Notes under the pieces: generated by a model
What the model saw: only the letters and a program-made list of their open reading frames with translations
The model's database searches: none
Told to the model about the DNA's origin: nothing
Shown: one piece after another, positions 1,430-25,200 of the stretch
Numbering within the stretch: the stretch's first letter is position 1
Layout of the letters: every line of letters starts with the position of its first letter
Translations under genes and position numbers: made by a program
Source: Hypomesus transpacificus
Lineage: Eukaryota > Chordata > Actinopteri > Osmeriformes > Osmeridae
DNA length: 64,000 nt
Reading direction: 5' to 3'
Assembly: GCF_021917145.1 (NCBI RefSeq)
Contig: NC_061062.1
Span: 6,291,847 to 6,355,846 of the forward strand

Positions 1430-1469
1430 TGACGTCATAATGCAAAAGTTAAGAATGCGCCGCCATTGG
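1430..1469 (-). promoter_or_regulatory. Putative promoter of coiled-coil gene copy 1: CRE plus CCAAT box
   Basis: A perfect palindromic CRE (TGACGTCA) lies at 1430-1437 and an inverted CCAAT box (ATTGG) at 1465-1469, about 115-155 bp upstream of the exon 1 ATG at 1314 on the minus strand. The same pair is at 29257-29264 and 29292-29296 in the other copy. The arrangement fits a TATA-less promoter; activity is inferred. Confidence 0.45.
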
Positions 1470-1499
1470 TTAGACTGTCGGATGCAGACTGCCGCGTCC

Positions 1500-2457: not shown

Positions 2458-2483
2458 CTCAATACCTCCATCTTCCTGATCAT
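2458..2483 (-). CDS. Alternative first exon of coiled-coil gene, copy 1
   Basis: A second copy of exon 1: ATG at 2483, 26 nt encoding MIRKMEVL plus two bases, followed by a GTGAGG donor. It lies in a roughly 560 bp stretch (about 2105-2665) homologous to 720-1500. Its upstream side keeps a CRE-like TGACATCA (2601-2608) and an ATTGG box (2636-2640). Its phase is the same as exon 1, so both could splice to exon 2. Use of this exon is inferred. Confidence 0.45.
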
Positions 2484-2694
2484 GATCACAAACCGTTAGT
2501 AGCTAAACCAAAAGTTAACTACATTCACTTGAATCTTCTTTGAAATGACAGTAAAACGCAGTGCTGGCACAACTTAATGTTGCAAAACTTCTGAGGTTCA
2601 TGACATCACAATGAAAACGTTTAGAATGCGTCCCCATTGGTTAGAATCTGTAGGTCGCATCAACTGCGGACTTAAGCCGAATCCCAATACTCCC

Positions 2695-2893
2695 CCTCAC
2701 CCCTTCCACAGCTTCACTTCCTGGAGTTGGAGCAAGAACAGGAAGTGATGTAATCTGACAGTGCTGATATGATGTTGCTGGAAGTGATTCACATGTCAGA
2801 TGCAGGTGTTTCACTCTGACACACAAACCACTCTTGAAGAAGAGAGGAGGGGTTTTGTAGAGAACAGGGGGATCGGCAGCACCGTGCATTTAC
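2695..2893 (-). pseudogene. V0: orphan TRBV promoter and RSS relic, copy 1
   Basis: This stretch matches the interval between a subgroup B RSS and a subgroup A leader elsewhere in the array. At 2840-2893 there is a decayed RSS (ggttttgt nonamer-like and accgtgc heptamer-like, both reversed). At 2713-2752 there is the inverted ETS/CRE-like promoter motif (acttcctggag ... aggaagtgatgtaatc). The V exon on the left and the one on the right are missing; the left side now abuts the alternative exon 1 region of the coiled-coil gene. Confidence 0.55.
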
Positions 2894-3108
2894 CAGTCAG
2901 GAATCAAAAACAAAGTTCACATTCAAAGCAGACTACCACCCCCTATAGACTAATATCTGTAAGTACCCATGCATCGCATCCTCTCAAAGTAACAACCCTC
3001 AACAGAAGTAACATCTGTAGTTGTGATGACGATATCTATCTCCTCTGAGTACATTACTGTTATTGTGGTTTGATCCAGGTGTGCTGAGGGGCCTGTTGAT
3101 CTCTGAAA

Positions 3109-3649
3109 GGTTTTTGTAGAGCGGAGCTGAGCTCTGTACCACTGTGTAGCTGGCTGCACAGAAATATTGTCCATCATCTTTAGGTTGCCTCAGTTGGAGA
3201 TGAAGGTAGGCTTCTTTCTTACCATCTCCACTCACATTGAAGATCCCTTGATATGGAGACTCAACAGTGGGATTTTTTAAGAAAACATACCCTATTAGTT
3301 TCAGAGCAGTGTCTCCCACTGAGCGCTGGTACCAGAGTATAGTGTCGTAATTAGGAATGTTATAACTGCAGTTCAGTTGGATCCTTTCTTCTGGCTTCCC
3401 CAGGAGAGTAAAAGGAGTTTGGTTCACCTCTTGACTGAGTGACTCTACTGTGGAGTGAGAAGAAGAGTAAAACTGATTTAGAGAATCCTTAAAGCTTGCC
3501 ACACAGATTTGTTTATTCCTGTAAAACTACAACACTACAGTTGAAAGTAATTTTCCTGGTAATGTGAAAATGTGATGTCCTGTAAGCTCAGTAGGCTCAC
3601 CTGTAATCCAGAACAAAGGAACAGAGAAGATAGTGAGAAGTCTGATCAT
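3109..3649 (-). CDS. trbv: V1: TRBV-like V segment, subgroup A, copy 1
   Basis: Leader exon 3601-3649 encodes MIRLLTIFSVPLFWIT. A ~150 bp intron follows, then V exon 3147-3447 ending YFCAASY. Framework cues are the first Cys (QLNCSY), LWYQRSVGD in framework 2 and DDGQYFC at the end. RSS: heptamer CACAGTG at 3140-3146, 22 bp spacer, nonamer ACAAAAACC at 3109-3117 (minus). It carries a 3 bp loss (LHLQLRQ instead of LHLLKLRQ) shared with V1' and V4-minus. The promoter motif acttcctggag...aggaagtgatgtaatcc is at about 3699-3738. Looks functional. Confidence 0.85.
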
Positions 3650-3831
3650 GGTGACCATCAGTGCTGAGCCTGGAGGACCAACTGAGGACTCAGCATCACT
3701 TCCTGGAGTTTGAGCATGAACAGGAAGTGATGTAATCCAGCGCTGCTGACATGATATTGCTGGATTTAATTCATACCTAAAATGCAGGTGTTTCACTCTG
3801 ACACACAAACCACTCCTGGATGAGAGAGGAG

Positions 3832-4169
3832 GGTTTTTGTAGAGAACAGTGGTGATCTGGAGCGCTGCATAGCTGGCAGCACAGTAATAAACTGCACTGT
3901 GGCTGTTTACACTCAGTTTCTTAATGACAAGAGAGGGGTTCTTTGCCTTGTCACCACCGAGATCCCCAATAAAATTGAACCTTCAACGTTTGGAGTCCTG
4001 AAATTCAAATACCCGATAAGTGTGAGAGCTGTGTCCCCTGGTTTCTGGAAGTACCAGAGCACCATTGTATAATCTGTTTTACTGTGGGTGCAGACGAGCT
4101 GCACAGTATCTCCATCTCTGCTGAGGAGATCAGAGGGAGTCTGGTGGACCTCCACAGTCTGACACACAC
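3832..4169 (-). pseudogene. V2: TRBV-like pseudosegment, subgroup B, copy 1
   Basis: V exon about 3868-4169 starts VCQTVEVHQTPSD and keeps LVCTH and LWYFQKPGDTA, then loses about 20 bp in framework 3 and reads out of frame. The heptamer is replaced by CAGCGCT (3861-3867) and the distance to the intact nonamer (3832-3840) is 20 bp. Homology to subgroup B stops at about 4262, before the leader exon, so it is also 5'-truncated. The same defects are in V2'. Confidence 0.85.
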
Positions 4170-4262
4170 CTGGACAGACAGAGAGAAGATATTACCACCA
4201 CATGGACACACAAGACATAAAAACACTTTATTACAATATAGAAATCATTCACATTTAGCATA

Positions 4263-5263
4263 TTGATGTGGAAATCTCAGAAGGTTCTAAGATAGAAGTG
4301 GATCAAAAATAGAGTCTCAAGTCTCCAAGTTTAGTTCTCAAGGCCAAAGAGGTGGCTTGATGGTGTTTATTCAGGCAGATAGTTGTATACAAACAACACT
4401 GGTACAGAACAAAAAAAAGCAGGCAACTCCCCCCGACACTGGGTAATATAGGCAGAATATTAAACGCACACCCCTTGTCCCAAGAGATTTTGCAATATGG
4501 AACCTTCTAGAAGCTTCTGGAAGATGAGTCACCCCCCCCCCCGTTACTGTGCACGCAGCCTCATCCTTGTCTTTGGGGGCTGCGCTCCCCTCTTATCCAG
4601 TGACCAGAAATAGCATGTTCTCCAAAAACCTCCACTTTCCTCGACCAACCCAACCATGTTGTTCTCACAAACCTTCCTTCACCCTACTCAGCCCCCTCCT
4701 TACTTGAAGTCACTCTGACATGCCCGCGTCCAGGTCCCACCCTTGGGAGTCAGTAGCTCCTTAGTTTCTCCTGAGAACAGCTGGAAACACTCACTAACCA
4801 TGGCAACCCCTGCTCCCTTGTCTCTTGTTGGTCCAAACTAAACTATCAGCAGTGTTCTACATAACAAGATACGCACACACAGAAGAAAATCCCCCTGTAT
4901 TAATCAGCCCAGCCTCACACTCTCGGCCCCCCTCCTGCCTTCCAAGGCAAGTTTCCTTCCTGCTCAAACAGGCCTGTTTGCAGCCAGATGTTTAAAGGCA
5001 GCCTAAAATTACAAAATATCAAATGACATACTAAGGTTAAAATAAGTCAACAAGCATACAGTAACGTAGACACACCCAGTTCACATATAAGCATCAGAGA
5101 AGTGTCCCTGCAGTACAAGCGCATCTGAGGCACATGACACACATGACATCAACACAACAAACACACATATAAGGAGACATTACATCAATGCTTGCATACC
5201 TGATTGGCAACAAGCCATACCTTAAGGCTGTTTGAATGTTTTGCATGTGTCTTTTGTATGTAT
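4263..5263. other. Intergenic stretch, no gene recognised
   Basis: No open frame or exon series supports a gene. The stretch is rich in C runs and short A/T blocks, has an inverted AATAAA near 4358, and reads like old repeat sequence. The same stretch follows V2' at 32090-33180. Confidence 0.4.
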
Positions 5264-6062
5264 GTGTGATGGCAGAGCATTCCAAGTGTTTGCTGAATTT
5301 ACAGAAAATGCTGATTTGCTAAAACATTATTCACTAATCAATAGAACTAGTCATTGGATACTAGTTAGTATGTTCTCATGTAAGCTTGCAATTAATAAGA
5401 GTAGATTGTGTCTATGTGTCAGGGTTAATAGATATTCAGGATCAGCAGAAAGTACTGGTTACACGTTCCTTGTCATGACTACATTTACAAGACGCTCTTA
5501 TCCAGAACGACTTACAGTTAATACAGGGACATTCCCCCCGAGGCAAGTAGGGTGAGGTGCCTTTCCCAAGGACACAACGTCATTTGGCACGGCGGAGAAT
5601 CAATCCGACAACCTTCTGATTACTAGCCCGACTCCCTCACCGCTCAGCCATCTAACTCTCTGAATACAAGGAGAGCTCCAACTATGAACTCTCTAGTCTG
5701 AGTGGTCATGTGTTAGGAGCAGTGAATCTTTTTCTCTGAGAATGTTGTAACATCATTACTGCCTGCCTGACTATCACTATATATGTTTACATTCTTGTGC
5801 CCTATAAAAGATGGCCCTTCGGCCTTCAGAGCTGAGAGAGACATGATTGAGACCTAAGCCTGGTGTTGTGTTGTCATTTTATTGTCAGAAGTCTGGTTTT
5901 CTCTCCCAATCTGCATATCGATAAATACTTATTAAAATCCAGAACTCAACTAAACTTAGTCACTCCGTTTATGAAGAGACGGACAAAACACTTTCTTCAT
6001 AAAGACCAGACATGTTGTTGTATTCTAAGTGTGAGCACATCGTTTACTATATTGATTTAACA
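5264..6062 (+). mobile_element. LTR-like fossil with a nested SINE, copy 1
   Basis: A unit running from TGTGATGG to TTTAACA. It has a TATA-like box (CTATAAAAG) near 5804, followed by about 250 bp resembling R-U5, and a SINE inside it at 5481-5655. The twin is at about 33665-34459. Family not identified; internal coding parts are not recognised. Present before the tandem duplication. Confidence 0.4.
5481..5655 (-). mobile_element. tRNA-derived SINE, minus, copy 1
   Basis: Same family as 62632-62840: L2-like tail (acgctcttatccagaacgac) at the left, the cacaacgtcatttggcacgg core, and the tRNA-like head (ccgctcagcca) at the right. The twin in copy 2 is at about 33886-34052. Confidence 0.65.
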
Positions 6063-6089
6063 ATTCCCTTTGGAGGAAGCACTTGAAAG

Positions 6090-6091
<2 letters not shown>

Positions 6092-6128
<37 letters not shown>

Positions 6129-6903
6129 ACTTTATTTATATAGCACTTTTCATACAAGAATTGCAGCTCAAAGTGCTTTACATAAAATCAACAAAAACAA
6201 TAATACAAGTGTTGATCTAACTAGCCGCACTCTATCTGCGGTCTCTCGAATCCGTCTTAGATCCGAGCTGCCACTTGCAGTTTCTAATACACAAACATGA
6301 CAAGGGGGTAGACAGGACAGGAAGAAATGTTCAGCATAACATGAGGAGAGAGAGGAGAAAAAAAGGCATCCCCCAGACTATGCTCCTAGAGGAGTACAGT
6401 GTGGGAACAGACAAAAAACACCTCAGCATTAAGCACATACATTGTACAACATTACAGAACCACATGACTTGCAACGGGGAGGGGGGGGAGGGGTATGGAC
6501 AAGCAGCATCTGGACCTGCAGCCATACTAGGCGCTGGTCACAGACCCTTGGTCATGACCCATGACAGAGACGCAATCCACAAGTGAAAGTTAGTGTATGA
6601 GTAGGCCTGGGTTGTCACCATCGCCTAGGCCACAATTACACACTTCTCAGTTCGCAGATCTTATTGCCATGGAGACAGCCTTAATCAGGGCCCAGACAGA
6701 GACAACAATCCTCAGGTGTCTGTTGGAAGGGGGTAGGGAATGCAAGAGAAGTCTCGCTGCAGCGCTCTTCAGGGGAGTTGTTGTTCCAGCAACAGCCTTG
6801 GCCAAGGCCTGTGCTGGTTAGGGTGCCGAAAGCAGATAAGATTGGGGTTGTTTGGTCGAGTAGCCGCATTCCAATTTGCACGTCTACTCCTTTTTCCACC
6901 GAA
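6092..6903 (-). mobile_element. Non-LTR element present only in copy 1
   Basis: About 810 bp absent from the matching site in copy 2, where acttgaaag runs straight into aaggaagcaaatg. The left end has a (GTAA)n run next to tttatttatatagcactttt, typical of the 3' end of fish LINE-like elements read backwards. A short aagaa target duplication flanks it. No reverse transcriptase frame is visible, so it is heavily 5'-truncated or non-autonomous. Inserted after the tandem duplication. Confidence 0.6.
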
Positions 6904-8740
6904 GAAGGAAGCAAATGTATGCAAAAGTGGTAGTGGAAGCTAGGCAACAAGGTTGGATATGGGTGTGTCAGAAGCTTTGTAGGTAAATCAACCACAACAC
7001 GTCTGTTGGACTTTGGTTTTCAAGGACAGTCACTCAAGGGAGTTCATAAAGGAGCTGTAGTCATCTGGTGAAAGGGCAAGCTATAATATAAGTGCTGAAT
7101 TCAAGTTTCATTTTCTGGGAACTTGAGCGGTAAGCGATATCTATCTGGTTTAAGAAGGAAGGGAGGATTTTTTGGAAAGTAGAATGTCCTGTACATGTAA
7201 GCTAATACCCGATGCCATAGTCTGAGTAATTTATTTTGTCGTCACCTGAACAAGGTTACTTACTTAAATAAGTTTGGAAGTATGTTTGGAAGTTCCAAAG
7301 CAAAAGTGTATCAGACAAATTCCAATTCAGTGCTACATTGAACATAAGCTTAAGCAAAACAAGCAGAAGAAGAAGCAGAAGAAGCAACAATTAACGGCCA
7401 AACAGTAAGTAATTAACTCATTTCTTACCGCATAAATTGTGCATAAAATAGAGGAAAACAACACTTAATGTTGAATTACAATTTTTTACCTGTCTATTCT
7501 GCCCTCCTGATGGTGGTGTAAAGTTATGCGTAGTCTGTCTCAACCACTACCACTGCCTTTCCCAGTCCTTTGGTGTCAGGTGAATACACATGTCAACTTT
7601 TACGGATTTATTGCAGCATTGAAATTGCTTACGGAAATATACATTAAATTATACGGAATGATTGACGCCGTTGGTATATGACACCCCCTTTATGCCACAA
7701 AAGCGATTCAGCCAGGCCTTATAAATTATACATTTTCTTACAGCTGATGTTATGAGAATTTTATCACTGTATGGAGGGGGCACAAGAGTTTGCATTTCAC
7801 CCCGTTTTGAACGCACCCTTTGTCAGACATCCCAAACAAGCAGAGACTCATTTCCGGGAGGTGGCTTCCTCCCCCCCGGGGTGCAATCAGGACACGCAAT
7901 GTGCACCTTTATCTATCCGGATATGACCTTAGGACACTCTCTCGCTCGCTCTACATGCAAAATCCCCAATTTCCGGGAGATTGTATAGCATTTGCGGGCG
8001 TCAGGATGCAAATGCGTTGGGATGTCTGCTTTGTTCCCTTAGCTACACTTGTACATCATGAATACACGTGATATAGGCCCATGGTGTATGACGTGGTTGT
8101 CTCAGTTGGTAGGCTGCATTAGAGCCCCTATATGCCACAACATGAAATATACAAATTGAGTCTGTGTTCTCCACCCCCTGCAACTCAGAATACCACAGCA
8201 CCTGGATTGAGAGAAACAATAATTGAAAAAGTTCTCACAATGTGTTAGTCATTTTGATTGCAAAATAAATCAGAACAAATTGCAAAATCTTGGAGGGACT
8301 GGTTATTTTAGCACATATTTGAACAGAGGCTGTTTTAGACAGATAACGGATAAATGTGCCAAAATTCAAAATTCATTCATTCGTTTCTTCAAAAGATTAT
8401 CTCAATTTTGCTCAATCTTAATTCCAGTGGTTTAGATGAATTGTAAATTAAGCCTATACTGTGTAGCAGAGAGTCAACAGACAAAGCTTGGTACATCCAC
8501 ATCTTTCTCCTACCCCCGAAAAGGGGGAAGGGTCCTTCCCCCTTTGTCCTTATCTCCCAGAAGATGCTTCAAACCCCTGACCCAGCATGGGGTCAGGAAC
8601 AGAGACCACATGGTCACACAGTATCAGACAATGGAGTATAAGGGAGAACTTTCTTTTGTGGATTTACAAACATATTTCTCAAGGACTACATGGCTCATGG
8701 ACACTAATTCAATGACAGTAGTCGATGTGTTATAATGTGT
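6904..8740. other. Intergenic, upstream of GIMAP/SLIP-GC gene copy 1
   Basis: No coding exon recognised. A possible splice donor (aaacaGTAAGTAA) near 7404 follows a purine-rich stretch and could end a 5' untranslated exon. The rest is AT-rich with scattered short frames that do not match a known family. The matching stretch in copy 2 is about 34486-36340. Confidence 0.35.
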
Positions 8741-9690
8741 GTTTTCTCATTTGCCTAGAACGTGTTTAATTGATGTTTGATTATAACTCCCCTTCAGATA
8801 CAGTAAATCAGTCAATCTTGATATCAAAATAATTGTATCATACTAACAAAACCAGTTATGAACGTTGTATTGCTCTATTCTGAAGTTCAAGCATTTCATG
8901 GACATTTGAGATAATGGAATTTAAACTATCAGCCACTTCACACCTCTGGGCAGATCTCAAGACGACGCCCAGGTGGAAGTAACTGACCAATGAGAGAGGT
9001 CACCTTCACACGGATGACCCCCTGTTCTTTGGAGTATAAAATCGCCAAACGTACAATCACCCCCGCTTGTTCGTAGGATTAACTTGGGGTGAACGCGTCA
9101 CTCTCTAACCTTTACCTCATAACTTGCATATTCACTTTGCGCCCGGAACTTTGACGAGAGATTCCGTTTCCTATTCGTTGGATATGACGAACCATTGACT
9201 CCGTTCTTCAAACCGACAAAAGTAACTGCGATTTGCAATATTTCTTACTTGTGACATATTGGCATGTTGTGATTGAATTGTCGATGTTTGATTGTATTTT
9301 ACAAATGATTTAACTTGACCATCGTTAGGTCAGTTGCTATTGATCGTCCATTGTTACTATAGAAGCCTCTTCCTCTGTACCTCTTCCTCACTCTCTCTCT
9401 CCTCCCCCTCCACACGCGCTCTACGCAGCCATTGTGTAGTGCGCTCTCATTAGAATTTAGGCATACTGTACTGCTTTAGCCCAACTAACCCATAACTTAT
9501 CTGGCATGTGTTCACTATAATTACATTCTCTTAAATAAATCATTGTGTATAATACTCGCGTATCTCTCACGTTATATGATCTGCTCTACTTTCATAGAAT
9601 TCCCTACTTAAGATTAGACTGATTATTACGAGTGCTATTATTCAATATTATTAAACAAGGTTTCCTCTGTCCCTTTCACGAATCAGAGGT
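8740..9690 (+). mobile_element. LTR-like or promoter-like stretch upstream of the GTPase gene, copy 1
   Basis: It contains a TATA box (gagtataaaatcg) near 9033, an AATAAA near 9533 and an end rich in ggtggtgcccc, an arrangement seen in fossil LTRs. It could equally be the native promoter of the GTPase gene, whose first recognised exon starts 100 bp further on. The twin is at about 36340-37280. Family not identified. Confidence 0.3.
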
Positions 9691-9797
9691 GGTGCCCCCA
9701 AGAACTACTATACTTTATTATAAACTAAGTATTGCTAATCTTAACCGTGCAAACCACACTACAACTGTTATATTGCAATTGGTTTAATCTTTTGCAG

Positions 9798-12700
9798 TGA
9801 GGCTTGTGTTGCTGGGGAAGAATGAACTGGACAATGGCCGAGTGGGAAACCTCATCCTTGGAAGAGATGCATTTCAGACTGAAGCCCTTGAGGTTTGTGA
9901 AGAACATGTAAGTGAGAGAGTCAGAGGACAGGTGGAGGGAAAAGCCATCACAGTCATTAACACTCCTGACCTATTTCATCCCCAACGCTCACAACATGAG
10001 ATCTCGGTGGCAGTGAAAGAGTGTGTGGCCCTGTCTGCTCCAGGGCCTCATGTATTTCTACTGGTGCTGCAGCCTGACAGCTTCTCAGAGGAGGACAGAC
10101 AAAAAGTGAAAGCCATACTGAACTTGTTCAGCGATGAGGCCATGAACTTTACCATCGTACTAACTACTGTTAGAAGTGCGCAACATGTCTCTACAACTTA
10201 CACTGGTGAAAAAGAAGACCCTTTAGGCCTGATCATACAGGAGTGTAAGATGAGGCATCACATGTTTGATAAGATTTACAGATTTAGTCAAGTTCTTAAA
10301 CTCTTTGAGAAGATGGACAAGATGATGGAAGAGAATGGGAGAAAACATCTCACCTGTGAGGAAATTGGGGTGATACCAGGGGGCTCATTACTTCCAGAGA
10401 GCAAACAGAAAGCAAAAAGAGGAAGAGAGAGTGATTCTCACAAAGACAAAGAATGGAAGAAGAAGAGAACAGGAGGTAGGAACCTGCGATAAATAATTTG
10501 TTTAATCACTTTCATTAAAAAATGACTGTTCTGAATAAAGAATGGCTCTTCTGTGGGTTACCATATGGTCCCATAACAGACAAGTTACTGATAGTGTCAT
10601 CATTCCATGGTAAATACTGTGTCACATCCATCTGTTCCACAAATTAAATTATGGTGATAAATAATAAAACAATGGTTATAGCTGAATAATAACAAGATCA
10701 ACACGATGGTTTGTTAGTTTTGGAACGTTTTGGTTTTGCACATATTCAAACAGCCCTCGGACTTCATCCAATCCATTCACAATCATTCTCATCTAAGTCT
10801 TAGATTAAAGGATTAGTCAAACCTGTCTGGATACTGTGGTCAGATCTGGCAAAAAGACATGGACTTTCACATTTACTCTCACTACAGGTAATTGTCAAAG
10901 AACAGATATTGTTTATGGTTTTATGGTCTTTTAATTTATAGAGATTAAAGATATTGCAGCCATACAGCAAGCACAAGAAGTCATGGCACAGGTTCAACAC
11001 AGATTTGAAAAGAAAATCCAAACCCATGCCAATACCAACACAGAATTTATGAACTTCATCAGGTACATTGCCTGTTTCAGTAAAATAGCATTAATTAACA
11101 TGCATGATAATGTTTTCCTGAATCTGCTGTTAATAAAAGCAAACTATCTATTTTTGTGTATGTCTATCTAGCTATTTATCTATGTCTTGTTTGTTTCTTG
11201 TGTCCAGAGACATTATGGCAGATCTGCTAAAGAAGACGATACAGAAAACCACTATTGGTGTGTTTGGAAAGACAGGAGATGGTAAAAGCTCCCTGATAAA
11301 TGCCGTCCTAGATGAGGAGGGGCTGTTACCAACAGGGACACTCGATGCCTGTACATCAGTCATCATACAAGTGGAGGCTGGGGCTGAGAGAGACCAGTAC
11401 ACAGCAACTATTGAATTCATCTCAAAAGAGGTTTCTTACAACTGTTACATTACCACTGTCATACTGTAATGTAACAACTCACATCCTATGTTTAAAATGA
11501 ATACTGAAAAATACTTTGTGTTCGTTTGTAGGCCTGGGAAAATGAGCTAAAGAGCCTGCTAGGTTTTCTAGCAGAACATGAGGAAAGGGATGAAACCATC
11601 TGCAAAATGGCAGAAGACAAGATTGAAGCTCTGTATGGAAAGAATGCAACTTCAAAAAGCTTTGATGAACTGATGAAGGATGATCGTTCAACAGTTATTG
11701 CAGCCCTGCTCAGCTTAACCACTAAAACCATCTCAAATGTTCAGGTAAGTTACAGTTCTTGTAGCTGTAAATTGTAATTGTATGTGAGTTCAAGTTACTT
11801 TATTTACAGCTCATATTTGTTAAAAATGATTACCTTCTAAGTCTAATTCTATGCTCAAACAGGCCTCAGATCTCTCTGAAGAAATCAGGCCTTATATTCA
11901 ACATCAAGAGTCTGATCTTGGGGGACTCTATTGGCCAGTAGTGAAGACTGTGAGAATCAAAGTGCCAGATCACAAAGAGCTTCTCCAGAACATTGTGCTA
12001 GTTGATCTCCCTGGAAATGGAGACTGCAATCAGACCAGGGACGAGATGTGGAAATCGGTAAGTGCTCACTGTAGTGCTCTTTGTCACAAACTGAAGGAGA
12101 TTCTGGATGCATGTGCAGCGCCCAACTTATTTGAATGAAAAAAATTACTTCAAGGAACTTACAAGATTCTTGTGTCAGACCTCAAGTTTAGACACCATAT
12201 TGACAGTAAAATTCCACACCCAATCAAACAAGTGAAAATGAGGAGTATTGATACAAAACAGAAGAAAGACAGAATAAGCAAAAACAGGTGCAGTAAATGA
12301 TTTGACTACCAAGGTTAACTGAGGGGCAGCAATATAAACAAGCCCAACATAGAATGACCAGCAGGGGGAGAGAACCAGGGTGTGACATAATTAAACAAAC
12401 CATTTTTTACATTCATATATGAATTCATTAATAGCATACAAGCTACAGGTTTCAATGACATGAATAAAATGTCATATTTGGCAAGTGAATTTCTTTTTTT
12501 GGGAGAAAATATAGTTTATAGTTTCAATGACAAATTATATAGGTACCGGCGCTTATTTTATTTTTCATATTGAATAGATAGAAACGGGTTTGGATTATAC
12601 TGTACTAGTTGTTTGTAATGAGAATTCTATTCCATTAAACCAAACGAACAACAAAAACAATAACTTTTTTTTTTCTTCCAGATGTTAAGGGAGTGCACAG

Positions 12701-15700
12701 CTGTTTGGGTTGTGAGTGATATCAATCGAGCCGCATCTGACAAGGCAGCCTGGGAGATCCTGAAGAGCAGCATGACAGATATGGTACAGGGAGGGGCATG
12801 CACTGGCATCACTTTCATTTGCACCAAAACTGATCAAATTGGTGCCCAGTCTTACATGAAATCATTAAGGTCAGTCTTTTTTTTATCCTTGATTTTGTGG
12901 ATGTAAGTGTATGCCATACTAAAGAGTGTGTTCAGTGTACTATTAGTTTGTTTATTATGTTATTAGGTTTGAAACAGTATGCATAAAACTACAAAAATTA
13001 CATATTTGATTTTCACATCCCTTAGACTGAACAATGAAGATCTAAAAATCACAGCGGATAATGTAAGTGAAAATTGATACAAACTGACACTACTTCATTA
13101 GATGATCTATCTATGCCAGATGAAATACAAGGTGATTTATTATTCTCCCCATTTCCCAGGAGTCAGAGAAAAAGCTTAAATGCATACAGCACAGGAATAA
13201 CATGGCCAAGAATCGAGTGAAACAAGCCTTTGAAAAACATCTCCAGGTATTTTTCTCACCTTGGAGGTGTTTGTGAAAGATTTTTCTGATCATACAGCTG
13301 GCTATTGACCTATTTTGATTTTTTTTCAGACATACTACATGCCAAGCATTTCAGTGTTTACTGTAAGTTCACAGGAGTTCTGCTCAAAGGAGCCATATCT
13401 GACACAGGAGGACACAGGTAGAGCATCATCAGTTTTAGTAGGTGTCTCTTTTTTCCATTAGAGGAGTGTGTGCTGTTCATCCACACCCATAAAGGGAGTT
13501 TGTGTATTTATTGAAGTGAGCACAAAAGAGCAGATTCACATGTTAATGGAGTCATTATAGCTGACAAAGAGACTATTTTCTTAATTGATTTCTTTGGGGA
13601 AAAACCCCGTTAGAGTTACCAAAGCTGAGAGAGGTGCTGAGGGGATTTAACCACAGTCACACAAACAGAGTGGCCTCACACTATTTTACAAGAGCCACAG
13701 GGATCCTGTCCCTCATACAGACATCCAAAGATAACAACGAGGAGATGGTAAGTGTCACCATTAATGAAGGTGTCCTTGTGTTGTCTGTAAATTAGTCTTA
13801 TCTTGAGGAGAAACTCAGATGGTTTTGTGGTATGTGTTTCAGAATAAGGACAAAGCTAAGCTGCACAGTGAGTTGAAGAAGAAGCTGGACGATGAACTGA
13901 AATGTCTATGGGTTAAACACTTAGAGCCATGTTACAATGAACTGGAAAAGTACCTCTCAGATGGAGTTAACAAGTCAGAGACGAAATGTGCTGAAATAAC
14001 CAAGAAAAACGTGCATGTACCAGTAAGTACTACTACTTGGCAGATTAAGTTATTTTATGGTATTATATTTAAAACTGCTACAGATCTACCATGCTTTAAT
14101 CCACACACATTTAATTAATTTACCATTCAATATTATTTCCTTAGGCAGGCAAAGATGGACGTGGACACCATCAGACTCTATCCGCCTTGTGCAGAAATAA
14201 AGGTTTCTTCAGGTCAAACAATGGAGAAACAAGAGACCTGAACGGGTCTTTGGCTGAACACATGTATGAAAGCATCAATGAAAAGTTTAATGCCTTGTTC
14301 CCGTAAGTATTCTTACAGTAGTCTTAAAAGTGTTTTTCATCCACAACCTCTGTGTGTGACGTGTCCAATGTTATGTGTGCAGAAATGAAGGGGAAACTAG
14401 CCTGTCAGTGCGGGGGAAGTTCAAACGATTCAGTGTCTGCTCGATCAGTGTCACTAAGGGCTACAGCAACCCTGCCGCAATGACTCACATTCTGAGGTTC
14501 TTAAAAGCTGAGGTAAGTGAGAGTGTTTACACCGCTGTATTTCTTTCTTGGTGGTAAATATATCACCAAACACTGAGGTAAAAAAATGAAAAACCTGCCA
14601 CAATATGCTATAAGTACAATAAACATATAACATACACATAAACCACTTCTAATAGCTATTGGGGGAAACACACTTCAACATTTGTTTGTAAAATTAATTT
14701 CCCTATTATGTGTCCCACATTTGACGAGTGTGGTGAAACAATGAACATTCCACAAATTAATTTAACTTTAGTGAAGTTGCCATGTATGTTCACAGTGTAA
14801 CTCTTCTCTAAAGCCTTATTGCTTCATTTGGAAACTTTGGTTGGCCTTCTAGTACTTTTTTTATTAGTACTCTCACATCGTTGCACAAACCTACACTTAA
14901 CGATGCATTATTTTGTCATTCTGCTAATCAACAAAGTGTACTGAAAGTGTTTATAATTGTTTTGAAATGCTAAAATTATTATAAAATTATGTGATGTAAG
15001 GTTGGACAATGGAAATCCATGCTATCTGACACTTTTTAGTCTCACAACCACTTGTTTTTGAGTCTCTGAATGGAAGCGATCCTCCTAAAACTGGATTTCG
15101 GTGTTTCTTTAGTAATGCTGATTAATAGTTAAAGAAACCTATAATGTTTTCAAAATGTACTATTGTTTTCTGAATGCAATATTTCATTGATTTCCCATGA
15201 AAATATACAGGAAGCCAAGCTGAAGGATTTAATAGATATAGAGATTGGGCAACAAAAGAAGGAAATATATGCATCAATCACAGATGCCATCAAAGACGAC
15301 ATGGTTCCTGGCTACAACAGTAAGTCAGTGGAATTGTGCTTAATTCCAGAAAGACTTATTTGAAGAGTTATGTGATTATGTAATTACGGTAATATAAACC
15401 AAATTGCTTGTTTGGTTGCAGAGGCTGAAGAATGTGTTGGACCGAGATCCATGTCGGAGAAGCAGAGAGTACTGATACAACATACTGAGTCACTGAAGCA
15501 CACCATGTTCAACAAAGCAAAGATCAGGATGTTGGATTTGTTCAGAAAACTGATGACGGTTTGTTCACTTTTACATGTGAAGTTCAAATATGAGAATTCT
15601 TTAGGATTTCGGAATTCTTTAGGAAGATTTAGTTGCTTAGGTGAATCGATTCCTTCGGAAATATTTAAACAAATGTTTGTTTGACTTTAATCTTTTTTTT

Positions 15701-16047
15701 TCTTTCTTTGCAAGGAACTTACCGAGACCAAGTTGAGAGAGTACCTACTGAAAGCTATGGCTCATGCACTGACTGAATCCAACTTCCCGTTTATCTTGGG
15801 TAAGTCAGGATCTCAACAGATCTTCATCTTAATCCATATCCATCTGCCTGAACAGTAAACTCACATTCCAAAGCCTTGCTTGGACACTGATGTTTGTAAA
15901 TCTGATCAAAATGCTTTCTCAGGAGTCTGATCATTCAGCTGGTATTAATCACACGAGAAAACACGACTGACTGTGTTCTTCTTTGTTGTAGATGTCAGCG
16001 CTGATATTAGAGAGCTGGAGATGTTATCTGCCCTAACTGATGAATAA
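9798..16047 (+). CDS. nuggc-like: GIMAP-like pseudo-GTPase fused to SLIP-GC-like GTPase, copy 1 (17 exons)
   Basis: Exons: 9798-10475, 10942-11062, 11208-11430, 11532-11744, 11863-12057, 12682-12869, 13026-13062, 13160-13246, 13330-13417, 13614-13747, 13843-14022, 14145-14302, 14383-14512, 15211-15319, 15422-15558, 15715-15799, 15992-16047 (TAA). All have GT-AG sites, and phases add up to one open frame of about 938 residues. Residues 1-226 are a GIMAP/AIG1-type domain (RLVLLGKNELDNGRVGNLILG; P-loop lacks GKS; INTPDLF kept). Residues about 287-295 are an intact P-loop (GKTGDGKSS), followed by DLPG near 460 and TKTD near 525 as in nuclear GTPase SLIP-GC, then a helical tail. The first codon is split, so an upstream exon exists but was not found. 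SLIP-GC is known from germinal-centre lymphocytes; function here is inferred. Confidence 0.8.
14513..15210. other. Long intron 13 of GTPase gene copy 1
   Basis: AT-rich intron without a recognisable element. It is about 280 bp longer than the matching intron in copy 2 (42270-42689), so one copy gained or lost sequence here. Confidence 0.5.
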
Positions 16048-16439
16048 CAGCGGCAAGAATCTATTGAAGAGTGGGTGTGGAAAACAGGTTTTTGTGTAGC
16101 CATGCCATAGTGTCAGAAATTGTCAGTGTATTGTTTTGGCGCTATATAAATTAAATTGAATTTAATTCAATATATGATTCAGTTTAAAATGTAGATCCCG
16201 TTAGTATATAGAGTTTGCTTCATTACAAGTGCAGAATGAAGAGGGTGAAAAGTTGTCCTTTGTAGCTGATTATTACTCACTTTGGCATTACATCATTAAA
16301 ATTCAGACGCTGTTTCAGTGAATCTCTTTAATGTAACTACTGTCTATGAACCTACTGCCCATTCAATGAAAAAGGAATTTTATACATTTAATTCACTTTT
16401 TATTTTATGCTTCAGTTAACATTTCTGATGCCAATACAC

Positions 16440-16566
16440 ACATAGATGTCAAGATTGTGGCGCGCACAGGTGCGGTGGCTCCTTGCTCTCCAGTGTGGTG
16501 TTTTGTTTGTACTGTTTTGTACTCGTTTTTTGTGTTTGTTAGTCGAGATTTGCAAAGCAAGCTATG
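16440..16566. repeat. Repeat-like fragment at the right end of tandem unit copy 1
   Basis: A short segment (gtggcgcgcacaggtgcggtg ...) shared with 44040-44159. It is the last homology between the tandem copies: copy 1 leaves it at 16566 for a V-gene fragment, while copy 2 continues into other DNA. Its origin (LINE 5' part or other repeat) is not certain. Confidence 0.5.
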
Positions 16567-16571
16567 ATGAA

Positions 16572-16792
16572 ATCAGAGGGAGTCTGGTGGACCTCCACAG
16601 TCTGACACACACCTGGACAGACAGAGAGAAGATATTACCACCACATGGACACACGAGACATAAAAACACTTTATTACAATATAGAAATCTTTCACATTTA
16701 GCATGTCTAAACAGTCATGACTTTGAGAGGAATATATAACATTTACCGGTCAGGATGAAGAACATCACAGTGACTATGAGACATGTGATCAT
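16572..16792 (-). pseudogene. V3 fragment at tandem-duplication junction
   Basis: The leader exon is intact at 16747-16792 (MITCLIVTVMFFILT), then an intron, then only the first ~41 bp of a subgroup B V exon (16572-16612, VCQTVEVHQTPSD). Homology stops at the duplication junction 16566/16572, with about 5 bp of filler. No RSS remains. The full-length counterpart is V3 on plus at 54130-54633. An open stretch continuous with the leader extends upstream to 16909. Confidence 0.85.
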
Positions 16793-17016
16793 GTTGACTC
16801 TCAGTCCAGAAATTTTCAGGGACTCTGAAGAGCTCTGAGCTCTGGTTGATCCAGAACAAGACTTCACCCCCAGTCTGGTGCTTGAGGACTTGTTGAGCTG
16901 TAACTCCACCTACAGGACAGATGACAGATGTATATTTGTGGTGACGATACCCATCTCGTCTGAGTACAGGCCTGTTATTGTGGTTTGATACAGGTGTGCC
17001 TTGATAGTGTCTGGAA

Positions 17017-17547
17017 GGTTTTTGTATAGCGGAGCAGAGTTCTGTACCACTGTGTCATATAAGCTGCACAGAAATATTGTCCATCATCTTCAGGTTGCCT
17101 CAGTTGGAGATGAAGGTGGGCTTCTTTCTTACCATCTCCACTCACATTGAAAATCCCTTGATATGGAGACTCAACAGTGGGACTTTTGTAATAAACATAC
17201 CCTATTAGTTTCAGGGCAGTGTCTCCCACTGAACGCTGGTACCAGAGTATAGTGTCGTAATTAGGAATGTTATGACTGCAGCTCAGTTGGATCTTATCTT
17301 CTGGCTTCCCCAGGAGAGTAGAGGGAGTCTGGATCACCTCTTGACTGGGTGACACTGCTGTGGAAAGAGAAGGAGAGTAACTCTGATTTATACAAAGTTT
17401 GCCACACATATTCAATTAATCATGTTACTACACTACAGTTTAAAGGTATTTAAGTAGCAGTGTCAAAGTGTAATGTCCTGTAATGTCAGCAAGGTTACCT
17501 GTAATCCAGAACAAAGGAACAAAGAAGATAATGAGAAGTCTGATCAT
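17017..17547 (-). CDS. trbv: V4-minus: TRBV-like V segment, subgroup A
   Basis: Leader 17499-17547 (MIRLLIIFFVPLFWIT); V exon 17055-17357, beginning AVSPSQEVIQTPS and ending YFCAAYMT. RSS heptamer CACAGTG 17048-17054, 22 bp spacer, nonamer ACAAAAACC 17017-17025. One codon shorter than V4-plus (LHLQLRQ), a loss shared with V1 and V1'. The inverted ETS/CRE-like motif is upstream at about 17597-17636. Frame open throughout; looks functional. Confidence 0.85.
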
Positions 17548-17700
17548 GGTGACTATCAGTGCTGAGCCTTGAAGACCAACTGAGGACTTAGCATCACTTC
17601 CTGTAGTTTGAGCAGGAACAGGAAGTGATGTAATCCAAATGTGCTGATATGATGTTGCTGGATTTAATTCATACCTCAAATTCAGGTGTTTCACTCGGAG

Positions 17701-18215
17701 GGTTTTTGTAGAAAACAGACGGGATCAGTAGCACTGTGCATAGCTGGCAGCACAGTGCTGCACTGTGGCTGTTTACACTTACACAAGGCATTCTTTGCCT
17801 TGTCACTGCTGAGATCCCCAATGAAACTAAAATGTTCTTTATTTGAACCTTCAAAGTTTGGAGTCCTGAAATTCAAATACCCGATAAGTGTGAGAGCTGT
17901 GTCCCCTGGTTTCTGGAAGTACCAGAGCATCATTCTGTTGTCAGTCTGGCCGTGGGTGCAGACGAGCTGCACAGTATCTCCATCTCTGCTGAGGAGATCA
18001 GAGGGAGTCTGGTGGACCTCCACAGTCTGACACACACCTGGACAGACAGGGAGAAGATATTACCACCACATGGACACACAAGACATAAAAACACTTTATT
18101 AAAATATAGAAATCATTAACATTTTGCATATCTAAACAGTAATTATTCAGAGAGTAATAGAACATTTACTGGTCAGGATGAATAAAATCACTGTGAATAT
18201 GAGACATGTGATCAT
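17701..18215 (-). pseudogene. V5-minus: TRBV-like pseudosegment, subgroup B
   Basis: Leader 18170-18215 ends in A instead of G at the splice junction but keeps the frame. V exon 17739-18037 is normal through LWYFQKPGDTA and NFEGSNKEHFSF, then loses about 18 bp plus further bases in framework 3, destroying the YYC region and frame. The RSS survives (heptamer 17732-17738, 22 bp spacer, nonamer 17701-17709), so it could still be cut but would join out of frame. Confidence 0.8.
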
Positions 18216-18398
18216 GTTGACTCTCAGTCCAGAAATGTTCAGGGACTCTGAGGAGCTCTGAGCTCTGGAGTGATATAGAACAAGACTTCACCCCCAGTCT
18301 GCTGCTGGAGGACTTGTTGAGCTGTAGCTCTACCTACAGGACAGACACCACATCTGTTCTGATGATGCAGGAAAACAAACCCAAGGCTTACACAAACC

Positions 18399-18918
18399 AG
18401 TTTTTGTTCAGCTGTACAATCAGTTTGTATCACTGTGTTGGCTGACAGCACAGAAATACAGCCCGCTGTCCTCTGGTGTCAAGTCCTTCACGGTGAACGC
18501 TCCGTTCTGAGCTACAGATTTAACAGCTGAGTATTTGGTTTTACTGAGATCTCCTTAGTCCGGCTGCAGACCAACGCTTGTGAACACGATGAGCATCATG
18601 GACTCCCCTGGACGCTGTCTGAACCAGTACATATGATGGTAACTCGCGTCTTTCTCATGGCTGCAGTTCATCTCTGCAGTTTTCCGGGCAAGACTCCAGA
18701 TTGTTCCTGGCTGCTGTGTGACATCACTCTACTGGCAGTGACCTGTGGAATGGAGATTATAATCATAGCAGAGTGGAAGTGATGCTCTTGTAAACATCTA
18801 CACTGTGTGAGCGTTATCTAGTCCATCATGGAGATGTTTCCTATGTAGCCACTGACCCTACAGTACCTGTGAGCCAGAGTAAAGAGAGAGACACTGGGAG
18901 GAGAGCTTGGAGAGTCAT
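18399..18918 (-). pseudogene. V6-minus: TRBV-like pseudosegment with two stops
   Basis: Leader 18867-18918 (MTLQALLPVSLSLLWLT) and V exon 18438-18742 mirror V6-plus. Two codons are now stops: the fifth codon after the splice (GHCQ then TAG, where V6-plus has AAG) and the Tyr of PDYGD (TAA for TAC). RSS intact: heptamer 18431-18437, 23 bp spacer, nonamer ACAAAAACT 18399-18407. Confidence 0.85.
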
Positions 18919-19094
18919 GCTGGCCCTCTAGATCTGGAGAGAGCTGCTCTGAACAGAACCACTGGTGCACTTTCTCCAAACTGAGCTTCTGTAGGAATGG
19001 GAGGGCAGGAGGATGTGTTTGTGTGTGTGTGTGTGTCTGTGTTTGTGAGTAAAAGGCCTGCATCATCTGAGGTGCATCGGAAAGCTCCTCCTCT

Positions 19095-19284
19095 ACATTT
19101 ACATTTAGTCATTTAGCAGACGCTCTTATCCAGAGCGACTTACAGTAAGTACAGGGACATTCCCCCCGAGGCAAGTAGGGTGAAGTGCCTTGCCCAAGGA
19201 CACAACGTCATTTGGCACGGCGGGGAATCGATCCGGTAAACTTCTGATTACTAGCCCGACTCCCTCACCGCTCAGCCACCTGAT
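19095..19284 (-). mobile_element. tRNA-derived SINE between V6-minus and V7-minus
   Basis: A 190 bp element flanked by TCCTCT at 19089-19094 and 19285-19290. The other inverted-repeat arm has the uninterrupted site near 51810, so this insertion is younger than the inverted duplication. The L2-type tail is at the left and the tRNA-like head at the right. Confidence 0.85.
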
Positions 19285-19394
19285 TCCTCTCCTCATAGCT
19301 GAGCAGAGTTCTGGCCCTGGATCAAAGCTGGTGACAGTGGCTTCATGCAGGTGTGTGGAGGAGTCCTACCACACAGACAGCACAGTCTGGGGGA

Positions 19395-19865
19395 TGTTTT
19401 TGTATTGAACAGGGGGGATTTACACCACTGTGGAGACTAGCAGCACAGAAATACACTGCACTGATCTCTGAAGAGAGCTGCTCTAGGGTTAATGTGCAGG
19501 TTTGGCCTTGGTTTGCACTTCCTTTCATCTTGAACCCAGTTTCAGGATTGCCTGAGTCTGCTAGCATGTATCCCAGATACACTAGTTCCATAATGTTGGA
19601 TTGTTTATACCAGTAAATGCGATTGTAACCCTGGATATCATGTCGGCAGTTAAATTCAGCAGAATCTCCCAGGTTCTTCAACAAGGCTGCAGGATTCTGG
19701 TGAACTTGGTCACTCAGAGACGAACCTGCAGAGGAGAGAAGACAAGATTTTTTTGCCTTTATTAAAAAAGTAACACGTAGGCAAATAAATTAAAAATGGC
19801 ATGAATATAAACTTACCTGAACCCCAGACAGCATGAATGGATATGCTGATGAGCAGGATGATCAT
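19395..19865 (-). CDS. trbv: V7-minus: TRBV-like V segment
   Basis: Leader 19817-19865 (MIILLISISIHAVWGS); V exon 19433-19725 with DQVHQNPAALLKNLGDS, FNCRH, IYWYKQ and AVYFCAASL. RSS: heptamer CACAGTG 19426-19432, 22 bp spacer, nonamer ACAAAAACA 19395-19403. Frame open. Unlike its plus twin it keeps a good nonamer. A perfect AGTGACGTCA decamer lies about 320 bp upstream (20184-20193, reversed). Confidence 0.8.
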
Positions 19866-20183
19866 GGTGCTCCTGTCTGCTGAAGCTCTACCAGTGAGGC
19901 TTCACTCAGATAATCAGGGACTTGTTCTGACCTGTTACTGCTGGAACACTGTTGTCTTTACTGGGACTGGCTTTGATTCTGTGTTGGTTTGTTGGATTGA
20001 TAAATGTGCAGGAAAGCACTTTGTAACGGTTTGAAAAGTTCTGTTCACATGAAGTCTGCTTACTGACTGAGAGGGAGGAGGCTGTCTACCACTGAGCTAC
20101 ACCCACCCCCTGCTGTGTCACAGTGACTCTGCCCAGAGGAGGTGGATGGAGGGAGTGTCAGCAGAACACACTGTCATCTCACA

Positions 20184-20193
20184 TGACGTCACT
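20184..20193 (-). promoter_or_regulatory. TCR-beta-type decamer/CRE upstream of V7-minus
   Basis: TGACGTCACT on plus, which is AGTGACGTCA read in the direction of the V genes. It matches the conserved decamer of mammalian V-beta promoters (AGTGAYRTCA). It is 319 bp from the leader ATG, farther than usual. Confidence 0.45.
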
Positions 20194-20337
20194 CAGGACC
20201 TTTCAGGAGAAGTCTGAGGCAACAGCAACATTAGAGACGTGAGGATTAATGGAACTAGAGTGCCCCCTACAGTCCATAATGGGGATAAACATCATCAGAT
20301 GGTTCATCATTCTGAATGAAGATCAAAACTCACAGGG

Positions 20338-20861
20338 GGTTTTTGTGCAGCTGCACATGATGTCTGTATCACTGTGTTCATAAACAGCACAGAAGTACAT
20401 GCCGTTGTCTTCTGGTAAAGAGTTCTTCACTGTGAAAGACCCTCTCTGTGCTACAGTCTTGTTTGCAGAGAATATGACTTCACTGAACTCTCCATAGTCA
20501 GGCTTGCTGCTGGCAACAGTGAACGCAACCTGCTTCATCCCCTGTCCTGGTAGCTGTCTGTACCAGTACATCTGGTAGTACCCAACACCCTTGGTGTGAC
20601 TGCAGTCCATCTCAGCAGGCTGCCCCTTGATTGACCAGAGGATGCTGGGGGTCTGGGTGACATCACTCCCCTCAGAGAGACCTGGAGACACAGAGACCAA
20701 AACCAGGACATGAGGATGACTTGATGAACCACCGTTGAGGTCCACCAGCTCAGCTAGACCTGAGAATGAATCTCTCCACACTGTAGCAGAGAGAACAGTT
20801 CCTGGAAAGTACCTGCAGCCCACAGTAGCGACACAGAGACTGGGATGACAAGAGAGATCAT
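20338..20861 (-). CDS. trbv: V8-minus: TRBV-like V segment
   Basis: Leader 20813-20861 (MISLVIPVSVSLLWAA; an upstream in-frame ATG at about 20888 could lengthen it); V exon 20377-20681 with SDVTQTPSILWSIKGQ, MDCSH, MYWYRQLPGQG and GMYFCAVYE, the most classical TRBV frameworks in the window. RSS: heptamer 20370-20376, 23 bp spacer, nonamer ACAAAAACC 20338-20346. Decamer-like AGTCACGTCA (reversed) at 20941-20950, 80 bp upstream. Looks functional; very close to V8-plus. Confidence 0.88.
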
Positions 20862-21206
20862 GGATGAGGATGTCAGAGCTGAACACATCTCAGCAACTGA
20901 CCAGAAACATGACTGTGCTTCTCTCTCTGGAGGGAGGAAATGACGTGACTCTGAAGAAGCCCTCCTGATCTCCACCTCCAGTCCTGTCACCTCCTCCACC
21001 AGGTTAGATGCTGTTTCTCTGTGTGTCCTCAGAACAAGTCAGACTGCAGTTGAACCTTTATCAGCAGATCACCAGTGTGGTGGTGTGTGAGCGTTGATCA
21101 AAGTGCTGCTCCTGATTCCCTGGCAGACGTTAGCCCCAGGTGTTGAGAGGGAGCCAGTCTCAGACTGGCTGCTCACACACACTGATCACCACTCTTATCA
21201 CAGGAG

Positions 21207-21675
21207 GGTTTTTGTAGAGGAGAGAAGGAGGGTGCATCACTGTGCAGACTAGCAGCACAGAAATACACTGCTCCGTCACTTGGAAAGAGTGTGGAGATGG
21301 AGAGTTTTGACTCGCTACGCCCATCTCCCTCAAAGCTGAATTGTCCTTTCACATCTTCTTCTGGATATGGAGAATTAAGATTCAGATAACCAAGTAGCTG
21401 GAGAGCCCCATCTAAATGTTGTTTGTACCAGAGGATACGATCATAGCTTTTAACGCTGTGTGAACAAAGGATCTCTTTGTCAACCGAGTCTCCCAGGTTC
21501 TTGATCAGAGCAGAGGGGGTCTGCTGAACTGACTGACTGGCAGAGGAACCTGTGGAGAGAAACAGTGGTGATGAGATAAACTAAAACCATGATTCTGTTT
21601 TTCTCTCTGAAATGTTGTTCTGCTCACCCTTGATGCAGGCAGACAGAGAGAGCAGAGGATGAAGGCTAGGATCAT
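21207..21675 (-). pseudogene. V9-minus: TRBV-like segment with leader frameshift
   Basis: The V exon 21245-21549 is open (SASQSVQQTPSALIKNLGDS, ILCSH, ILWYKQ, AVYFCAASL) and the RSS is good (heptamer 21238-21244, 22 bp spacer, nonamer 21207-21215). The leader exon 21628-21675 is 48 nt, one C shorter than in V9-plus (CTGCCTGC against CTGCCCTGC), so leader and V exon are out of frame. A decamer AGTGACATCA is at 21767-21776. Probably non-functional unless another donor rescues it. Confidence 0.7.
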
Positions 21676-22281: not shown

Positions 22282-25200
22282 CTACGTATCCTCAAAGGCC
22301 TTTATGTTACGGTCGGCCTCTTTGTTAAGTTTCTCCACATATGCTTCAATCTCAGCCAGTCTGGCTCTTTTTTTCTCCTCTTTTGTTGCCTTCTTTTTTG
22401 GTTTTACTTTCTGCCAGAACTGTTTCCAGAAACCACGTTTCTTCTCCTTGTCTGTTTACAAGAGACAAGCATTTAATACTTCAACGTGGTCTAGAGCACA
22501 CAGAATAACGATTGTCAAGCCTACAACAGTGTCTCAATTAAATCATTCTGACATCATTATATAGTACACTTTCACATCACAAAAACATTTCTTACTTGTC
22601 TCTGACTGTGCCTTATCTGACTCATCCGTCTCTGACTCTTCCTTATCTGACTCTTCAGTCTCTGTCACTTCCTTCTCTGACCCTTCCTTCTCTGTCACTT
22701 CCTTTTCTGTCACTTCCTTCTCTGACACTTCCTTCTCTGTCACTTCCTTCTCTGGCCCCCACGCATTCTTAACCTTCTCTCTGCTTTTGCGTTTCATTTC
22801 TGCATCGTCCTTCTTTACGACTGTGCAATCCTCCTTGGTATCTGCTATTTTCTCCTCCTTGAGTTTCTCTTGCCTTTTCATTTCTAGTTCCATCTCTTTT
22901 ATTCTTTGCTCCTCTTCTCTCCTGTACTGACTCCTTTCCTCGATGGCTCTCCTATTCTCTTTCTCCTTTCTCCTCATGACTGCTAGTCTATGCTTCTCCT
23001 GCCACTGTCGTCTTGCCTCATCGGACTCTTGTCCGCATTCCTGCCGTTGTCTTTCCTCCTCCTCCCATCTCTTCTCTGATTCTTTCATTTTTGCATCCTC
23101 TCTCATAATTCTCTCCCTATCTTTAACCAACTCTATTTGCTTGTCCAATGTTGTTTGGAGCCAAAAGTTATCTGCAGCTTTTTCTCTCATGTCATATAAC
23201 CTGGCCAACTGGGTTTTGTCCCTCTCTTTTAGTCTCTCCATTTCCGCCTCCATCCACTCTTTCTCCTTGTCTCCTTTCTCCTCATGTTGTTTGACCTCTT
23301 CCTCTGACTTTTTCTCAAGCTCTTTCTGTCTCTTCAATTCTTTCTCTTTCCATCTCCTGTCTCCTTTTTGTCTCCATCTCAGCTCCATGGCTTTTCTATG
23401 CTCTTCTCTTTGCCTCCTCTCCTCCATTTTTATTTCCATCTCTCTTTTTCTTCCCTCCTCTTGGCTTTCCGTCTCGAGCCTTTTCCTTTCCTGCTCACTG
23501 TCTTGCTCCATTTGATCCATTTCTCCAACCTCACCCCTTTTTTCCTCAGTGACCACTTGTTGTTGCTCTGTCTTCATGGCAAGTCTGTGGTCCTCTGCTT
23601 CAGTCTGCTGCTCTTCTTGATTTTCTCCCTTTTTGTCAAGTTCCCTCTGCATGTTTGCTTTGTGTCTCTCCTCCTCCTTCTCTCTCTCTAGTTCTTTCTG
23701 TCTCCCTTCCTCCTCCTGTCTCTCCTGTTCTTGCTCTCTCTCATTCTCTTTCAGTCTCTTAACTTTCCTTTGCAGGTCCTCTTCTTGTCTGGCCTCCTCT
23801 GCGCTCTCCATTTCTTTTTGTCCCTTCTCTTTCCTCTCCCCTGTCAGTTGTTCTTCCTTCATCTCAATCTCTCGATGTTTTGCAAGCCCGTCAAATCTCT
23901 CAATGTCCCTCTGATGCTCTTCTTTGTGTTTTGTTGCCTCCATCTCTTTCTGTCTTTCTTCTTCCTCTTGTCTCTCCTGTCTGTAATCTCTTTCTGTCTC
24001 TCTCTGTCTTTCAACGTACCTCTGCAGTGCTTCTGTTTCTCTTGTCTCCTCGCTCGTTTTGTCCATCTGTTTATGTCTCTCTTCCTCCTTTTCAAGTCTA
24101 ATTTTATCTTTTTGACTTTCCCTCTCTCTTTTCCTTGCATTCTCTTCGAATCTTTCAATTTCCTTCCGAAGATCCTCTTTTTGTCTTGCGACCACCCTCT
24201 CTCTTTCTAATTCTTTTTGTCTCTTCATCTCCCTCTCTCGTCTCTCCTGTTCTTGCTGTCTTTTAGTCTCTTTCAGTCTCTCTATCTGTTCAAGTCTTTC
24301 AACTTCCCTTTTCAGTGCTTCTTTTTCTTTTGCATCCTCCATCTCCTGTTTGGCCTTTCTGTCAAACTTGTTCTGTCTTTTTAGTTCTTTCTGAATATCC
24401 TCTTTTTGTCTTGCGTCCTCCCTCTCTCTTTCTAATTCTCTTTGTCTCTTCATCTTCCTCTCTCGTCTCTCCTGTTCTTGCTGTCTTTTAGTCTCTTTCA
24501 GTCTCTCTATCTGTTCAAGTCTTTCAACTTCCCTTTTCAGTGCTTCTTTTGCATCCTCCATCTCCTGTTTGGCCTTTCTGCCAATCTTGTTCTGTCTTAC
24601 TAGTTCTTTCTGAATTTCCTCTTTTTGTCTTGCGTCCTCCCTCTCTCTTTCTAGTTCTTTCTGTCTCTTTTCCTCCTCCGCTTGTCTCTCTTTTTCTTGT
24701 TGAAGTTCAATGTCTCTTTGACTCACCTTCTCTTCAAGTCTTTCAATTTCCCTCCGAAGATCCTCTTTTTGTCTCGCGGCCTCACTCTCTCTTTCCAGTT
24801 CTCTCTGTCTCTCCCTCTCCTTCTCTCGTCTCTGCATCTCTTCAAATTCCCTTTTCAGTGCTTCTTTTTCTCTTGCACCCTCCACCTCCTGTTTGGCCTT
24901 TCTGTCAAACTTGATCTGTCTTTCTAGTTCTTTCTGAATTTCCTCTTTTTGTCTTGCGTCCTCCCTCTCTCTTTCTAGTTCTTTCTGTCTCTTTTCCTCC
25001 TCCGCTTGTCTCTCTTGTTCTTGTTGACGTTCAATGTCTCTTTGTCTCACCTTCTCTTCAAGTCCTTCAAATTCCCTCCGAAGATTCTCTTTTTTTCTCG
25101 CGGCCTCACTCTCTCTTTCCAGTTCTCTCTGTTTCTCCCTCTCCTTCTCTCGTCTCTGCATCTCTTCAAATTCCCTTTTCAGTGCTTCTTTTTCTCTTGC

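Follow-up and report, generated by a model that had tools for sequence, protein, structure and literature searches.

A duplicated fish gene model that probably joins a degenerate GIMAP-type head to a dynamin-like GTPase

Introduction

The GTPase SLIP-GC (NUGGC) is made up of an N-terminal helix, a GxxGxGKSS motif, a DLPG-type G3, a TKxD motif and a long helical C-terminal part. It is reportedly located in nuclear speckles and is said to be expressed in germinal-centre B cells, and the mammalian protein is not known to carry a GIMAP head.

Several described arrangements come close to the one reported here. GIMAP8 is described as holding three G domains in one protein (PMC4201521), amphioxus possesses AIG1 proteins joined to CARD and HINT domains (PMC12373286), and in fish NUGGC is tandem and copy-variable, as described for Cottus and stickleback (PMC5638112). 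In a salmon study, gimaps are mentioned next to SLIP-GC, both as genes of lymphocytes (PMC6972705). No description of an AIG1 plus SLIP-GC fusion was found in the parts of the literature accessible to a limited search, outside which most subscription papers lay.

Here we analyse a stretch of 64,000 nucleotides from Hypomesus transpacificus (contig NC_061062.1, positions 6,291,847 to 6,355,846; hereafter the window). One gene, present twice in it, would encode 938 residues or more, in which a GIMAP-type head with an AIG1 profile is followed by a basic linker and then by a complete dynamin-like GTPase that we place with SLIP-GC (NUGGC).

Gene Model and Its Second Copy

The first copy (copy A) lies on the forward strand and comprises 17 exons (9798-10475, then 16 exons at 10942-16047), which form a single open frame of 938 residues closed by a TAA stop codon at 16045-16047; all 16 introns are GT-AG. 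Exon 1 (9798-10475) encodes a degenerate AIG1/GIMAP head with a basic tail, and exon 2 (10942-11062), in phase with it, contains an in-frame ATG and encodes a linker before the second G domain. The G1 motif of that domain, GKTGDGKSS, is found in exon 3 (11208-11430), its G3 motif DLPG in exon 5 (11863-12057) and its G4 motif TKTD in exon 6 (12682-12869), all three being intact downstream of the exon 1/2 join. The frame also stays open, between GT-AG introns, through exons 4 (11532-11744), 7 (13026-13062), 8 (13160-13246), 9 (13330-13417), 10 (13614-13747, with a weak acceptor), 11 (13843-14022), 12 (14145-14302), 13 (14383-14512), 14 (15211-15319), 15 (15422-15558) and 16 (15715-15799), and exon 17 (15992-16047) carries the stop codon, with an ATTAAA downstream at 16150.

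Copy B (37475-43518, forward strand) is located approximately 27.7 kb downstream of copy A. All 17 exons were found in it, its 16 introns are likewise GT-AG, and its frame remains open to the same last residues and stop. Exon lengths are equal in 14 of the 17 exons, and the net changes in copy B are 6 additional bases in exon 1, 18 in exon 8 and a loss of 3 in exon 15 (through three single-base gaps); exon 2 shows no difference at any of its 121 positions. A preliminary description of this DNA had proposed a frame running from a GIMAP-type exon through 16 further exons, a phase of exon 1 fitting exon 2, and phases agreeing exon by exon in both copies. The model bears this out, with an in-frame join at 10475/10942, and at 38158/38616 in copy B, and net length changes that are all multiples of three. 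When the fused protein was searched against the translated window, up to an E value of 1, copies A and B alone were returned. As the copies share ancestry, being 96.5% identical across 9764-12437, they are not independent witnesses and their agreement was counted once.

The divergence between the copies is mosaic, reaching 25% in intron 14 (15320-15421) and 0% in introns 10 and 16, which gene conversion would explain. Just before exon 1, copy B (37318-37445) resembles sequence further upstream in copy A (8322-8462) and not 9702-9763.

The GIMAP-Type Head

Residues 1-185 match the Pfam AIG1 domain (PF04548) with an E value of 3.5e-32 and a score of 111.9 bits, for a cut-off of 27. The solved structures matched by the head represent eight distinct sequences, namely GIMAP5, GIMAP2 (four), GIMAP7, GIMAP4 and GIMAP1, with no other family among them. 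Asn and Gly stand in place of the P-loop Lys and Ser in the alignments with GIMAP2 and GIMAP5, and Asn in place of the Asp of DTP in G3, giving NTP. The G1 stretch reads GKNELDNG when aligned to GIMAP2, and TTVRSA occupies G4 where GIMAP2 has THKEDL. The missing P-loop lysine had been noted in the preliminary description, and the alignments confirm it while adding the Ser, the G3 Asp and G4 to the losses. The head does retain the conserved box of GIMAP proteins between G3 and G4, where its LSAPGPHVFLLV corresponds to LSAPGPHVLLLV in GIMAP2 and GIMAP5. An AIG1 domain and the conserved box are thus both present and the G1, G3 and G4 nucleotide-binding motifs are lost, for which reason the head was classed as AIG1-related and not as a GIMAP GTPase. 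A P-loop GTPase domain without such motifs should not bind GTP normally, and from their loss the head is predicted to be nucleotide-blind. The approximately 40 residues that follow the AIG1 domain are rich in Lys, Arg, Glu and Ser. A predicted structure of the head, built from the two copies, had a mean pLDDT of 44.6 and was set aside as unusable.

The Second GTPase Domain

Dynamin_N (PF00350) matches residues 282-501 with an E value of 3.2e-16, and the intact GKTGDGKSS, DLPG and TKTD motifs claimed for this part of the protein hold. The second half therefore possesses what is expected of a SLIP-GC protein, a G domain of the dynamin type in which G1, G3 and G4 are intact. Its assignment to the SLIP-GC (NUGGC) type is tentative, being made on the N-terminal helix, the motifs and the Pfam match, which is to Dynamin_N only. 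No family named for SLIP-GC or NUGGC was present among the Pfam and NCBIfam matches of the protein, those to NCBIfam being weak and far under their cut-offs, and a search of the PDB with the second half returned no significant solved relative (three sequences, E values of 0.73-0.95).

The Start of the Gene

Position 9798 had been given as the start of the gene. Exon 1 begins there at a phase-1 acceptor, no in-frame ATG precedes the AIG1 domain and the first Met is residue 115, so 9798 is not where the gene starts. A search for coding first exons, defined as an ATG plus a donor scoring at least 0, was made in 4500-9780 for copy A and in 32500-37450 for copy B. This gave 52 and 50 candidates, respectively, 18 of which are common to both copies, and in none of these 18 does the donor reach 5 bits. 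The top-scoring candidate of copy A (6561-6588) was rejected because it lies inside 805 bases that have no match in copy B. This unmatched block (6097-6901) begins with a GTAA microsatellite and may represent an insertion or a deletion.

A candidate non-coding first exon, purine-rich and with a GTAAGT donor, is located at 7290-7404 on the forward strand, its left end being approximate. The donor at 7404 scores 9.0 bits, the top of the three donors of at least 7 bits listed in 7000-9780. Splicing 7404 to 9798 gives ...AAACA|TGAGG, which creates an ATG preceded, three codons earlier in the same frame, by a TAA, and both the splice-made ATG and the TAA are identical in copy B, where the donor follows 35002. 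On this basis it is predicted that a non-coding first exon ends at 7404 and that the start codon is formed at the splice. The three longer upstream frames were also compared with Pfam for further AIG1 exons and gave no match.

An interferon-response-like element overlapping a GAS-like element (AGTTTCNNTTTC) is found at 7104-7121 in copy A only. It occurs once in the window, at least one occurrence is seen in 22 of 100 shuffles, and its counterpart in copy B (34719-34736) has three mismatches. Owing to the shuffles and to its absence from copy B, it was lowered from promoter support to a lead.

One Protein or Two Genes

We consider it fairly probable that both halves belong to one protein. In leave-one-out scoring, the splice sites of the exon 1/2 join are ordinary, as its donor reaches 4.3 bits (1.5 to 12.3 for the other 15 donors) and its acceptor 6.9 bits (-5.4 to 12.6 for the other 15 acceptors). 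Against one protein, approximately 8% of GT sites in the window score at least as well as this donor and 3% of AG sites at least as well as this acceptor, and one in three random exon joins would be in phase. The join is a model, since exon 1 read unspliced reaches a TAA stop at 10490-10492, starting 15 bases past the last exon base. That stop is the starting point of an alternative which we regard as rather unlikely, in which two genes adjoin, a GIMAP-like gene ending unspliced at the TAA and a dynamin-like GTPase gene starting either at the ATG of exon 2 (MAQVQHRF) or in a short exon at 10522-10609. The stop and an AATAAA at 10534 (together 10490-10539, forward strand) were counted for two genes, as were a second AATAAA at 10663, which is present in both copies, the G at both -3 and +4 of the exon 2 ATG, and the ATG at 10522, which with a 7.1-bit donor at 10609 yields an in-phase stretch of 29 residues that recurs in copy B with a single replacement. 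However, only 449 bases separate the unspliced stop from exon 2, a very short intergenic distance, the AATAAA at 10534 is not conserved and reads AATGAA in copy B, and a scan of 10476-10941 for an interferon-type element or a TATAWAW box found neither. The unspliced tail of exon 1 is one codon shorter in copy B. Comparison of the fusion and of its halves with genome and viral contig collections, both of which are without fish, confirmed no locus and says little.

The changes between the copies bear on whether the fused protein is maintained. Over 937 codons dN/dS is 0.93, which fits relaxed or diversifying selection. The head (226 codons) has six replacement changes and one silent change, so no constraint is visible in it, and there are 23 replacement and 9 silent changes in residues 227-540 and 58 and 15, respectively, in the remaining C-terminal part. 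Of 4000 simulations that placed 112 random substitutions on copy A, only 1.25% were stop-free, and the coding frame therefore seems to have been maintained ever since the genes were duplicated; for the seven changes of the head alone, 76% of simulations were stop-free and the test is uninformative. It is conceivable, and in our estimate improbable, that the fusion is decaying, copied along with the T-cell-receptor array described below under little constraint. The overall dN/dS, the excess of replacement changes in the C-terminal part and the mismatched counterpart in copy B of the interferon-type element would all agree with such decay. Yet neither copy has a stop or a frameshift, each retains GT-AG at 16 of 16 introns, the rarity of stop-free simulations speaks for a maintained frame, and a dN/dS of about 1 fits diversifying selection too.

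Genomic Surroundings

The window contains 16 exact recombination signals of the 23-type (CACAGTG-N(21-25)-ACAAAAACC), with none expected from 100 shuffles. Two V frames were searched in Pfam and both are V-set, and more such frames occur among the open frames of the window, which we read as a V array of the T-cell-receptor alpha/delta type. V segments with signals extend over 3109-21244 and 30935-30972 on the reverse strand and 49859-63147 on the forward strand, and the blocks on opposite strands are partly inverted copies of each other. Further V segments are inverted at 49464-54196. Copy A, on the forward strand, is situated between reverse-strand V segments, and copy B between reverse-strand and forward-strand ones. 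Both are contained in a tandem duplication (1-16566 and 27831-44159, the second unit being followed to 44159 only) with a spacing of approximately 27.7-27.8 kb, mostly 90-100% alike where compared, and its unit carries V segments as well as the GTPase gene. Given this location inside a T-cell-receptor V array, V(D)J recombination between flanking segments could delete or invert the gene.

Other elements of the region include an open frame of 1461 residues on the reverse strand (22546-26928), rich in Glu, Arg, Lys and Gln and containing five 324-base repeats that are 95-100% alike. It had no Pfam match up to an E value of 0.01, and pieces of an inverted copy of it are found at 47383-48375. Reverse transcriptase pieces occur inside the V array at 55179-55982 and 57825-58424, both on the reverse strand, with RVT_1 matches of E 7.3e-16 and 3.8e-6, respectively, the latter below the curated cut-off; these are probably non-LTR elements.

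Proposed Working and Significance

If both halves do form one protein, the second G domain would most probably act as a GTP-driven switch or as an oligomerising part, and the head, unable to cycle on GTP, would offer a fixed surface for docking or pairing, through which the GTPase may be recruited either to a target or to GIMAP partners. The open frame, the splice signals and the loss or retention of motifs are observed, and one shared transcript, the binding of GTP by just one of the two parts and an adaptor role for the head are inferred; the proposal of the preliminary description, a pseudo-GTPase sensor coupled to an active effector, is a guess. That a pseudo-GTPase head and a large immune GTPase inside a V array amount to a sensor and effector which lymphocyte development can switch off, the gene being deleted or inverted in some T cells, and which is copied with the V segments, is an idea we hold to be very doubtful.

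A single protein would unite two lymphocyte GTPase families that have been studied apart, and would offer a natural experiment on the function of an AIG1 domain deprived of GTP. Through the location within a T-cell-receptor V array, the copy number of the gene is linked to receptor rearrangement, and its fate in somatic cells may be as well.

Comparison with Known Systems

Fish GIMAP8-like proteins reportedly have a similar N-terminal head without a P-loop, in which case the blind head would be an old module reused in fish and the novelty would lie in its partner alone. The second half of the predicted fusion resembles SLIP-GC as outlined above in its N-terminal helix, its GxxGxGKSS, DLPG-type G3 and TKxD motifs and its helical C-terminal part, and it is on that same outline that the fusion is set apart from mammalian SLIP-GC by bearing a GIMAP head. 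Like the GIMAP/IAN GTPases, the fusion has an AIG1 domain and the conserved stretch between G3 and G4; unlike them, it has a head without G1, G3 and G4 and a second G domain that is dynamin-like and not AIG1.

The presence of several G domains in one protein is shared with GIMAP8 (PMC4201521). The AIG1 proteins of amphioxus likewise have AIG1 shuffled onto other domains, although there the partners are CARD and HINT and the animal is not a vertebrate (PMC12373286). The GTPase gene of the window is present as tandem copies, as is NUGGC in Cottus and stickleback (PMC5638112).
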